Part shown: positions 40,862-49,800 of the stretch, one piece after another
How the letters are laid out: each line of letters begins with the position of its first letter
Position numbering within the stretch: position 1 is the stretch's first letter
Assembly: GCA_963965975.1 (NCBI GenBank)
Contig: OZ014425.1
Coordinates: 377,001 to 441,000, forward strand
Length of the DNA stretch: 64,000 nucleotides
Source of the DNA: Xestospongia bergquistia
Taxonomy: Eukaryota > Porifera > Demospongiae > Haplosclerida > Petrosiidae
Direction of reading: 5' to 3'
The notes under the pieces: generated by a model
Database searches by the model: none
What the model saw: the letters and a program-made list of their open reading frames with translations, nothing else
Told to the model about the DNA's origin: nothing
Program-made: the position numbers and the translations under genes

Positions 40862-43800
40862 ATGTCTGGTAATCTCTTTGATGATGTTGATGACAGTATG
40901 TTTGATAACGTTACAGTTTAAATAATTACATAGCACTTCTCTTAACAGGTGAAGATATTTTTAATGAGAAACCTAAAGTCATAAACAAGGAACAAAGCCC
41001 TGATTCGTTAGAAGATGAAGACATTTTTGGCGAGAAACCAAAAGTGTCTGGCAAGGAAAAAAGTCCTGATCTGTTTGCAGAGCTAAATCAAGAGAGTCAA
41101 ATGACTTTATTTAGTCCAGGAAAAGGAGGAAAGGTAAACGATATGTCACAACATACCAGCTACCGACTTCATCTTTTCTCTCTAGTTATTTGACTTTGGT
41201 ACAAATGAAGGTCCTGGTATATTTGACCGTCCAAGTTTATTTGATGACTTACCTCCTCAAGCAAATGGAGAGGACAATGAAGAAACAGGAACTAAACTGG
41301 TTCCTACTGAATTTGATCCTCTTGTAGATCATGACCCAGATGACTTTGAAATCATTGATCCTAAAGAAGCTCCCTCAGCAGAAGAGGCGGAAAAACAACT
41401 TGAAGAGATAAGATTGGAAACAGAAAGACGAAAGAAAGAAGAGAAAGAGAGAGAAGAATTAGAGAAAGCACAACAAGAAGGAGATGAAGCAACTGACGGT
41501 GGAACTTGTAAGTTTTTTTCTCTAATAGTTAGTTTACATAATTGTTTATAGTTAGTAGAATTGTATTTGGTAACACTTGTCTCAACAACGAATCAGAAAC
41601 AGGTAAGAAATGGGACTAATAACCAATGAAATTTATATCCTTCTCAGAACCCCTAACTACAACCAATCCCCCATCCAGCCCCCCTTTGACAGATTCTTAT
41701 GAAGATAAAGTAAGTGATAGATAGATAGATATTGTACTAATCAAATTATATTATTGTACATGTATATATAATTATAATATTAATAAAGTAACATTATAAG
41801 GTAAGTTATTATAAAGGGAATTTACTTCCTGTTGGAGTTCCTGGCTACATGATATCGTACTGAAATTTATAATTCAAATGTTATGTAGAGTTAATATTAA
41901 ATATATCACATAAGTATCTGTGTTATTCTCGTCCTGGTCATCTGAGCAGTCAATGTTTGCTAGCCTGCTATCTCCATTAACAATTTTCATTAAATGTAAT
42001 ACTTGTTGACAAAGAGCTATTGTGTATTGTTTAGCAGTTAAATAACCTCTTCTTGATGGGGGTATGACTTCTTGACTTACTGATGCTAACACAACCAGGC
42101 CATCTTGTCCATACCATGTATCTTTATGACACTCCCACTGTCTTTGTAACACTTGTATATTTGATTGGGTCATTAAATCTATAGTGGGTGTGGCCTCTTT
42201 AAGGTGCGTATATCCAATATAATAACCAGTTACTTGTTTGCTAGTTATCTTATGTAAATCTGAAAATACAACTTCAAGAGCATCAGCAATAAGGTCACGT
42301 GCTGCGTAAAAACCTTGTTCTCGAATATTAGCAATGTATGTAGGATCTATGATAAGTCCTCCTTGAGAACTAGTAGCTAATTCTTTAAGTTTTCTAGCAA
42401 CAGAATGATTAGAACTGGCTACTATATCAGGATATAAAGCCATTTTGAGTGGAGCTCTGCTTTGGAGTAGTAAAGCAACAGTTGTTATTTTCAATCCTTT
42501 ATAACTAAATCAATTACTTTTAGTTGATCACAGCCTTCTCTGTCATTATTGTCTGATGCTGTTACTACTAGCAACTGTTAATGACTGTGTTTATAAAGTG
42601 CATTCATGCATTCAAAACTGGTCTAACTGGTTTTCTTTACTTGTTTTCATGTGCTCTGTGAATATTCTTGTCAATATTTGACCTAATTTGGTCATATTTG
42701 ACAAGTTTGTGTTATGAATTTTCGAATGTTTGAATTTCCATATTGTCAACATTCATTGATTACTAGTAACAGTTGTGATTGTCATGAATACATCTGCTAA
42801 TATGATAGGAAAACAACTATAGTTTATTCTTAACTTCTTATGGTGTGTTGTTCTGTATTATAATAGTTTTTGCCAAATAAACAAAGTCAGAAATTATTTT
42901 TAATTATATTTTTATTTTGAAAACTATAAAATGTACACTAAATAAGGATAATCCCAAACTCTAACATAAAATATTAAAAATTATATGAAGAAAAGAGAAG
43001 GCTTTACGTGCTCCTAGTTTTCTGTAAAGGACGAATTGAAGGATGATACCGAGGCTCAGGAAGGATCGTAGGAAGAATCACAGGTGGAGGCCTTTGCAAA
43101 GGACGAATTGAAGGATGATAGCGAGGCTGAGGTAGAATGGAAGAAGGTGTGAGGGGAATGGTACGAGGCCACTGGGAACCATATGTTGTTGGATGAGGCT
43201 CTGGTTGAGTATAACGCTCATAGGTTCTAACACGTATAAAAGCCATATAAAGTGCATATGCATAAGCATCTGAGTCGACATAATCCATGTCTGCATTATC
43301 TTGGACTCTTCTTTGTCTGTTACCTTCATTAAATGTAAGGTTAGCTACCCTTTCATCTAATTCATTAATTAACATATGATGAAGAAGTCTTTGTTCAAGG
43401 ATTAGAGTATAATCTTCGTGACTAATACGTCGTAAATGAGGTTTGGGAAGTGCATCTCTTGTAATAGCAGTTAATACTACTAACCCATCACGGCCATAGT
43501 TCTTAGTAGAGTGACTTTTATATCGACTATTGATGCCTTCTATTCTCCATGTAGATGGATTCATGTGATCAAAATGTTGATAACCACCTCCTGCTTTATG
43601 TCTTCTGCGTATATAAGTTTTTCCTATATAATATTGTTTTATTATGCTTCCTTCACGATCAGCATTTCCACGTTCAAGACTCTGGATTGTTTCGTTGAGT
43701 TTTTGCGACAATTTTTCTATATCTCTGTCCATTTTTCTTTTAGCTTCAATTTCTTCTGTTTCAACTAAATCAACAAGATTGAATGAATAGTATGTTCTTT

Positions 43801-46800: not shown

Positions 46801-49800
46801 ATAGATATATCTTTATTGAGTAGAATTGTCATCTTTATTAAAACTATATGTCACATATAATACATATCCCAAAGCACTTGTTCCTTTACGACCTGGTTTA
46901 TATTTACTGTCTCTATTCCATAATATGAACTGGTTACTATAGTAATTATGTAATTGATGTTCTATTGTTAGTACACAGTCCTCAGCATCATTACCACACT
47001 CTGTAATATACTGAGGTATCTGATGATACCAGTGTTTAGTTTGAGGAAGAGTTAACAATATTATCATACCATCTTTACCATATATGGTGTTCTTATGATT
47101 GGACCAACGTGATTGTATTCTTGATAAGTTCCAAGTCTTTGGATCTTGAGGGTTAAATATTAGTCCAATTCTCTTGCTGCTGGGAATAGAACTCTTGCCA
47201 ATATAGATATATTGTATTGGACGACAGTGGAGTTCTTGTAACACATTTATAGAATCCTTTATTTTTAATTGAACTGCATTGAACAACTCTTTGTGAGAAT
47301 TAATTGTTGTCAAATCAACTAAATTAAATGAACAACATGGCTTTATAACAGAGGAGGACATGAACACTGTAGACTTATTTGATAATACTCTAAGAGTATT
47401 TCTTGAACAATCTTTTGCTGATGATATTTTAGAAGCATTTAATAGTTTATATTGTATAGGATATGCCCTCAGTACAACTGAAGAATACCTCCTGTATAAT
47501 ATAGATATGATAATTTAACAGTGTGTGTTTAAAGATAGATCTGTTAGTCTATTAATGTCAGCATAGTCACCTTGTCATGAAGTGTTTCAATGGTGAAGAC
47601 AACAACTGATATTGGTGATAATACATTGTATTTGTAATAACTTTAACCATTGCCGGTTGAGTGGATAGTGTGTGAATTTGTGACCACCTCTTGAACATTG
47701 ACTTGATGGCTTGTTAGCTTGTTGTAATGCTAGCTGTCAACTGGTTGTCATGATGTTGTCAAGGAGTTGTTATTGCTATAGTAATACCATCATTGGGAAC
47801 TGATTCATGTAGGATTAATGAAGCAATACATTAATGATCATTTTTCATCCTAATCTAACTTGATATCAATTAGTAATTATTGTTGTTATTTATTTTTATA
47901 GAACTCCCAGTTACTAGCAGATGCCCAGAAACAGATTGCTGAACTTACAGCAAACTTAAGACAGGCCCAATCTGAAAATGCCGCCATGAAATCAGAGGTA
48001 CTCAACTAGAGAGACAAACAGATATGTATACAGTGAGTTATTGTTCTTATAGGTCAATCAACTGAGACAACAATTGGACGAGGAAAGAGAGAAGACCAAA
48101 AAGTTGGAGACTACCATTAAAGAGAAAGATGCAGAAGTAAACAGAAAAAAAAGATAAATTTAAAACTAATAGTAATATTGTGGTTAAGATAGGAAGGAAG
48201 TAATAGTGAGAACGTAAACCTCAAAAGGATACAAGACAATGAAAAATATATTTGGTTTATCACTGACAGGATGTACTACAGTGTAAAGTTACATTTCAAT
48301 ATTTCTGGGTTACACTAGCTAGCAGTAGTAATAGACTTCTCCTTCTGAGAACATTCCCAGTCAGTCCTAGTACAATATGAACAACAGTAGGTGCATTGCC
48401 ATAATATTTGGTGGTTTATGGTCAAAAGAATTAGCGTTCTTGGCTAGTTCAGTTTAGTTGAAACACTTAGAATTTCATTATTCTATTAGGTATATCTGTA
48501 TATCAACATAACCCATACAACAGCTATACTTACCATCAAATCATATCCTCCTACACTGTTTGTTGTATGGTATGTAATAATGATGATTTGATGGGACTAG
48601 AGCTCTGTTTAATAGTTCAGTACGGGGAGATGATCACATAAGATTCATACTTTTAAGTTATACTAGATGCAATGAACTGTTCACAAATTAGTATTATAGA
48701 GTGATATCATTACTGGTTATTTACAGGCGTTACAGTTTATTTTGCACACTTTCTGTAAATTTGTTAATTATTTCACATTGTCTGTCTTTAGATTGCCTCT
48801 CTTAAAGAGAGTAGTACCAGTGCTGGCAGTGGTAAGACCACTAGTAAACCACCTCCTGCTCGTAAAACATCAGCTACTAATGTTAGCAGTACAGGAGCTA
48901 CCAAAAGTGCTAGCAGCCCTCGAACCAGGTAGGTTTGTAACTAGTTACTACTACTGGTATCATAGTAATTCAATGTTTGTTTTGGAAATAAAACTTATTG
49001 TGGTTACCTTAGTAACTTTTGTATTGCATTGGAAAAATAACTACATCGTCATCGCGGCATTTTTTGAATGCGCGAACATTACGTCATGATTAATAATATT
49101 GATCGCCGAAAGTTGATATATATAAAGTGATTTCAAGCTTATTTTGGCTCAGTTTGTTTCCGAATCATCATCTCAAGTCTCTTTCAAACGATTTTTTGCT
49201 TGCAAAAATGTCTGGAGTCGAAGTCTGCACGCCTCCAACAAGATCAGCCACGATTAGTATAGCCAGTGCGAGCTATAAACATTTCTCGTGGATAGAAGAA
49301 CGGTAAGACTATTTACCTCTGAGAAATGTCAGATAACTTTGATTAAATCAATTTGTACTGTAACAAAAACAAAATCACATATTATTTTTGTTAGAATACA
49401 AACAATTATGCTAGCAAACATAATACATATTAATAATTATAATATAATATTGTATTATTGTTTTGGTATAAGAAATTTTCCTGTAGTAAGTTCCATTAGC
49501 TATAGCCCATATATTCAGTCAATAGCTAACTCTGTCTCTTTGATCTGGGAGACTGTCCACTGCTTTTCAAGGGTGGCTTGGTTGTAACCAGGATACATTA
49601 TCAACTAGACATCACCATCATTATTGTGATAACGAAATATGAGTAGTCCATTATCATCATATAGAACCTGTACCATCCTTTATAACAATAAGACTAGTAG
49701 CCTTCTTATATTAATAACAAATACATGTATTTACATGTTGATCTCAGGAAGTTTTAGTACTATCATAGATATTAGAATAAAAAGAACTTCAACTCTATTA

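Follow-up and report, generated by a model that had tools for sequence, protein, structure and literature searches.

The four intronless genes A, B, C and D, nested antisense in a single predicted intron, belong to a genuine family that numbers 27 loci or more and shows open frames, duplication, and selection on a shared domain in several pairs, B/C among them. On balance, we think it probable from sequence comparison that this domain is a GIY-YIG nuclease domain, highly divergent and of the COG3680/ANKLE1 (LEM-3) type, in a multigene family subject to birth-and-death evolution. The window analyzed here is a stretch of 64,000 nucleotides, positions 377001 to 441000 of contig C15, and our genome searches cover the 146-Mb assembly with its 21 contigs.

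All four are minus-strand single-exon open reading frames (ORFs) within one inferred intron of a plus-strand host gene, at 41710 to 47901 of the window (ORF listing). We infer this intron because the splice consensus fits (AAA/GTAAGT ... TATAG/AACTCC) and the frame continues, still in phase 0, through the exons that follow. The exon before it is placed at 41648 to 41709 by splice consensus and frame, and the exon after it at 47902 to 47997, which the frame enters in phase 0. A plus-strand open frame with the start of a LIM domain (53328 to 53519; PF00412, 4.5e-8) lies 5.4 kb downstream of the intron end and is presumably a later exon of the host gene, so that the LIM domain and the exons flanking the intron would form one gene. 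Upstream, splicing of the host gene is ambiguous: pairing the strong donor (41508) with the acceptor at 41647 would create an in-frame TAA, as judged by reading 41186 to 41709. An Rfam search of 41000 to 48500 gave no matches.

Member A (41874 to 42443, minus strand) has 189 amino acids from its ATG, in an open frame of 206 codons (41874 to 42494). Member B (43004 to 43837, minus strand; 277 amino acids) has the full candidate active site and a proline-rich, repeated tail. Its sister C (44942 to 46378, minus strand; 478 amino acids) has a longer repeated tail with basic stretches, in which four copies of a 97-nt repeat, family D2, span 44932 to 45460. A match of PF22323 to this tail (2.7e-4, 21.1 bits) fell below the model's cut-off of 27 and was set aside. 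Member D (46813 to 47361, minus strand) has 182 amino acids from its ATG, in an open frame of 184 codons (46813 to 47367). The observed ATG-initiated ORFs of 478, 277, 189 and 182 codons compare with maxima of 160 codons for the longest and 72 for the fourth-longest among 300 dinucleotide-preserving shuffles of the intron. Because the shuffled intron never gave ORFs that long, the lengths of A to D are not due to chance. The sequence-only reading of this DNA, which had proposed four antisense, intronless ORFs at 41710 to 47901, is thus borne out, each ORF being listed where that reading had put it.

Queried with A, B or D, the genome yielded one and the same family (26, 30 and 26 rows, respectively), and a search with the C1 copy L028 returned 32 rows; the resulting counts are lower bounds, and C was never a query but was retrieved by B at 9.5e-82. 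After merging of these rows, at least 27 loci remain, spread over four places. The window has 4 of them, C1 has 14 at 2.79 to 2.88 Mb and a further 8 at 6.19 to 6.22 Mb, and C8 has 1. The largest arrays are therefore those on C1, outside the window. The frame is open across the domain at 20 of the 27 loci (4, 10, 5 and 1 in the same order), and at the other 7 it is interrupted, cut short or affected by an internal deletion. The earlier description of a single protein family, single-exon and in many copies, is confirmed by the searches with A, B and D. A literature search limited to openly available papers found no title or abstract naming the family. Three near-identical copies on C1 (at 6192638, 6198061 and 6203483) are spaced by 5,422 to 5,423 bases and differ by at most one amino acid, the mark either of a triplication in tandem that happened recently or of an effect of the assembly.

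The genomic context of most copies was read within 1.5 kb. Nested intronic genes are common in animals, with 2357 of them in the ctenophore Hormiphora by one count given in PMC8527503, and against that background the arrangement in the window is ordinary, save that four relatives share a single intron. On C8, the single copy has a ZU5-like stretch on each side of it, on the same strand, and is not evidently intronic. For these two reasons we take the intronic position as incidental. The two ZU5-like stretches (L067, 801 to 1520 and 8640 to 9371) resemble each other, and one of them scores 0.0051 with PF00791, under the cut-off.

In each protein a variable tail would follow a domain of some 200 residues, in which a long helical insert is predicted between the two Tyr boxes and another insert ahead of the Arg/His helix. 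We aligned 17 of the 20 open members, leaving out the near-duplicates L016, L023 and L024 and the 7 broken loci. All 17 rows share, without exception, Y-I-G, a Thr, R-x3-H, G-x-D-G and a Leu, so the ordered blocks noticed earlier in the four window ORFs are real. Among the candidate active-site residues, the His, the Arg and the second-box Tyr are present in 17 of 17 rows, the Lys and the Asn in 16, and the Glu in 15. An Asn after the metal-binding Glu is a feature of the GIY-YIG superfamily, absent in Slx1. The first-box Tyr occupies one column in 14 of 17 rows, and C has a Tyr one column over; this placement rests on the alignment. The first box has no G-I before its Tyr. The distance from this Tyr to YIG had been put at about 45 residues in place of the usual 10 to 11; the gap is indeed long, but its length varies by member, from about 45 to 54 residues (hand count).

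Sequence libraries did not recognize the domain. Searches of Pfam with the 17 members and the four full ORFs matched no model to it, neither PF01541 nor PF22945, and found no ankyrin or LEM domain in the full ORFs. Searches with the 17 members were at chance level in PHROGs (best 0.029) and NCBIfam (best 0.031) and gave no match in PADLOC at E up to 1, and PDB sequence and profile searches were likewise at chance level (best 0.14, a ribosomal protein). Conversely, a profile search with PF01541 matched seven places in the genome, none belonging to the family. L001, L003 and L004 (C14, 3.98 to 4.03 Mb) are long single-frame ORFs in which TPR repeats are joined to a canonical GIY-YIG domain (TPR_2 8.3e-10 and PF01541 3.3e-9 in L001; the other two similar by eye), and the GIY-YIG part is possibly a captured Penelope-type domain. 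L005, L006 and L007 are PF01541 matches in ORFs that are Penelope-like by eye, and L002 (C7, 2.055 Mb; PF01541 1.8e-7) is SLX1-like by eye.

Profile comparison points to one branch of the superfamily. The family profile, which is narrow (Neff 2.7), scored 18.7 locally against 15 COG3680 rows, a value reached by 2 of 150 column shuffles, and 21.8 against nine viral COG3680-like rows, reached by none of 150. With 12 viral rows added to the COG3680 template, which was enlarged to 27 rows (some redundant) after the first result was known, the local score was 26.8. None of 400 column shuffles but 3 of 300 block shuffles got that high, and the reversed profile scored 13.95. The alignment is collinear, with YYIGK, the Glu helix and R/L-x-N following one another along it. 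In the same test, accepted pairs of GIY-YIG families scored 22.8 (UvrC/canonical), 32.6 (canonical/COG3680) and 56.1 (UvrC/COG3680), and three decoy alignments scored 8 to 11 against the COG3680 templates. Softened gap penalties raised the COG3680 score to 42.0, a value that is uncalibrated and so was not counted. Kinship with the canonical GIY-YIG or UvrC families was rejected: the canonical template, from which a filter had removed L192, L193 and L202, gave 13.8, reached by 38 of 150 shuffles and exceeded by the reversed profile (17.8), and the UvrC template gave 13.5, reached by 35 of 150. Global alignment gave no signal with any template, the real score being reached by 118, 92, 59 and 110 of 150 shuffles.

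Kinship of the domain with the COG3680/ANKLE1 branch of GIY-YIG is thus probable but unproven. The sequence-only reading had proposed a divergent GIY-YIG family likened to the T4 type; the first part receives weak support from the local match to this branch, whereas no match was found to the T4-type/canonical profile, to UvrC or to PF01541. The long gap by itself does not exclude membership, because, as a superfamily review advises (PMC1564403), the GIY half and the YIG half of the motif are best handled as separate boxes. The gap is, moreover, explained by the long insert that the COG3680/ANKLE1 branch also has between its Tyr boxes. The strongest competing explanation is an unrelated fold in which the YIG, R-x3-H and Glu/Asn likenesses arose by convergence or chance. 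It would account for the empty library and PDB searches, the silent global alignments and the three block shuffles that did as well, but it fits poorly with the 400 column shuffles that did not, the collinear order and the far lower decoys, and it leaves the coincidence of the invariant residues with catalytic ones to accident. We consider it unlikely, if a serious contender.

If the domain is a GIY-YIG nuclease, B, C and most of their relatives may hydrolyze DNA by the ANKLE1 mechanism. The activity of ANKLE1 needs Y453, Y486, H498, E551 and N565, with a contribution from K519, and by the roles assigned to these residues (PMC10287932) the two Tyr and the His would activate water while the Glu and the Asn would hold one metal ion. 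The variable tails may set location or partners. Not every copy is so equipped. Contrary to the proposal that a helix with Glu is shared by all four window members, A keeps YIG, the Arg, the His and the Asn but has neither the Lys of YIGK nor the helix Glu. D keeps YIGK, the Arg, the His, the Glu and the Asn, and its first-box Tyr was not found in the alignment. In the C1 copies L020 and L017, Gln replaces the Glu and Ile replaces the Asn, respectively. By these residues, A has probably lost catalysis, as L020 probably has. Such substitutions would be expected of a GIY-YIG fold that no longer catalyzes and has turned to binding nucleic acid or protein, its kept residues being structural, yet the losses are scattered over single copies, and most members retain the Glu, the Asn and the His. 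A wholly noncatalytic family therefore seems to us rather improbable.

The history of the family is one of local duplication superimposed on older copies. B and C are sisters with 99/100 support in a 19-row tree, which left out L023 and the 7 broken loci. They have in common the domain, the tail units and, by repeat analysis, a pair of short repeats that lie in the 3' flank: the minus-strand flank of B (42914 to 43005) contains them at 42914 to 42945 and 42976 to 43005 (families D7 and D8), and that of C (44788 to 44886) contains copies at 44788 to 44819 (88%) and 44857 to 44886 (93%). These shared parts and the sister position indicate that the B/C duplication occurred at the DNA level. In the same tree, the branches of A and D are very long (5.24 and 5.65) and the placing of either is uncertain. 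A matches C1 copies better (35%, 1.1e-17) than it matches B (31%, 1.6e-7), and D matches the C8 copy (1.7e-14) better than it does B (2.7e-5) or C (8.7e-6). With their best matches lying outside the window, we read the intron cluster as one clear local duplication plus two old copies. Tandem duplication, as first proposed, is thus supported for B and C, but an origin of all four by duplication inside the host intron is not supported, and the expansion of the family is genome-wide rather than confined to the intron. Turnover would combine duplication in tandem with divergence and the formation of pseudogenes, with the intronic position incidental to it.

Single-exon ORFs, many clustered copies and a nuclease-like domain could also mark the remains of a mobile element (a homing endonuclease, Penelope-like or viral) that spread the ORF, possibly from a retroposed founder. 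The copies, however, form tandem arrays in four places instead of being dispersed, the window cluster has no long inverted repeats around it and only one weak 28-nt pair, and the two 10-kb stretches read contain no reverse transcriptase ORF. Searches for relatives in viral_contigs, genome_contigs, phages and plasmids found none (phages gave four chance-level matches), part of the viral and prokaryote search consisting of one or two short peptide patterns that distant relatives could escape. We regard this origin as very unlikely.

Selection was assessed in pairwise comparisons of the copies. Ratios for 21 pairs were mostly 0.31 to 0.63, with one pair saturated and higher values for A/L012 (0.70), D/B (0.84), L022/L027 (0.84) and the nearly identical pair L022/L024 (0.88). 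Synonymous exceeded nonsynonymous divergence (pS > pN) at Fisher p < 0.01 in 6 of 8 pairs, including B/C (p 4.6e-4). The B/C domain is therefore under purifying selection, as in several other pairs. Two close C1 pairs compared at full length showed no significant selection (p values of 0.22 and 0.14). One tail pair had more nonsynonymous (0.033) than synonymous (0.007) change, from few changes. Neutral dN/dS had been named in advance as evidence against the proposal; B/C departs from it, and the pairs of A with L012 and of D with B are among those with high ratios. That the ORFs are chance frames or dead copies without a protein product, as the 7 broken loci and the high ratios of those two pairs might suggest, is scarcely credible given ORF lengths far above the shuffles and the excess of pS over pN in B/C.

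If the COG3680/ANKLE1 kinship holds, a many-copy, divergent ANKLE1 relative would show that this enzyme class can become a rapidly evolving family and would offer natural active-site and insert variants for testing the ANKLE1 mechanism. If the fold is not GIY-YIG, what is left is an uncharacterized multigene family under selection, of moderate interest. Research on human ANKLE1 treats it as a last-chance nuclease acting on DNA bridges, and a single gene of this kind is said to exist in mammals (PMC4888674). As a speculation that we hold to be doubtful, the copies described here might represent a hitherto undescribed family of animal nucleases, single-domain and either derived from ANKLE1 or resembling it, in which genes duplicate fast, tails change and some copies are catalytically dead. 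Through its many genes such a family would guard against foreign or branched DNA and not act as a single housekeeping repair enzyme.

Among known systems, Penelope-like elements have a reverse transcriptase before their GIY-YIG domain, whereas the family ORFs are complete without one. The canonical GIY-YIG proteins (PF01541, of the T4 I-TevI kind) and UvrC have the same order of YIG, R-x3-H, Glu and Asn but no measurable profile similarity to the family. Bacterial proteins and IMG/VR viral-contig proteins of the COG3680-like kind (…LTNQTDGGEG) give the best local profile match, over E-x-A-x2-x-E...L-x-N, a likeness at the edge of noise and visible with profiles only; PF22945 had no match in 150 genomes of one bacterial phylum, which therefore supplied no template. 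Eukaryotic COG3680 has been described from Metazoa only (PMC1564403), so an ANKLE1 gene points to an animal genome. The genome's own ANKLE1/LEM-3-type gene, with ankyrin-like and nuclease parts, is separate from the family: its three exon-sized pieces (C10, 859526 to 860079; L064 to L066) are the only PF22945 matches in the genome (5.4e-15, 2.7e-10 and 6.9e-10). Unlike ANKLE1/LEM-3, the family members are single-exon, occur in many copies, have no ankyrin, LEM or PF22945 match in Pfam, and carry the second insert between YIG and R-x3-H. The Tyr-box insert is 33 residues in human ANKLE1, counted from Y453 and Y486 as numbered in PMC10287932, and 29 in this genome's ANKLE1, compared with about 45 to 54 in the family, and the Glu-to-Asn distance is 14 in ANKLE1 and 18 in the C1 copies (hand count). 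Like the metazoan COG3680 proteins of PF22945, however, the family has a long Tyr-box insert, a box of the FYVGK/YYIGK type, a His helix and a Glu helix, and then an Asn.
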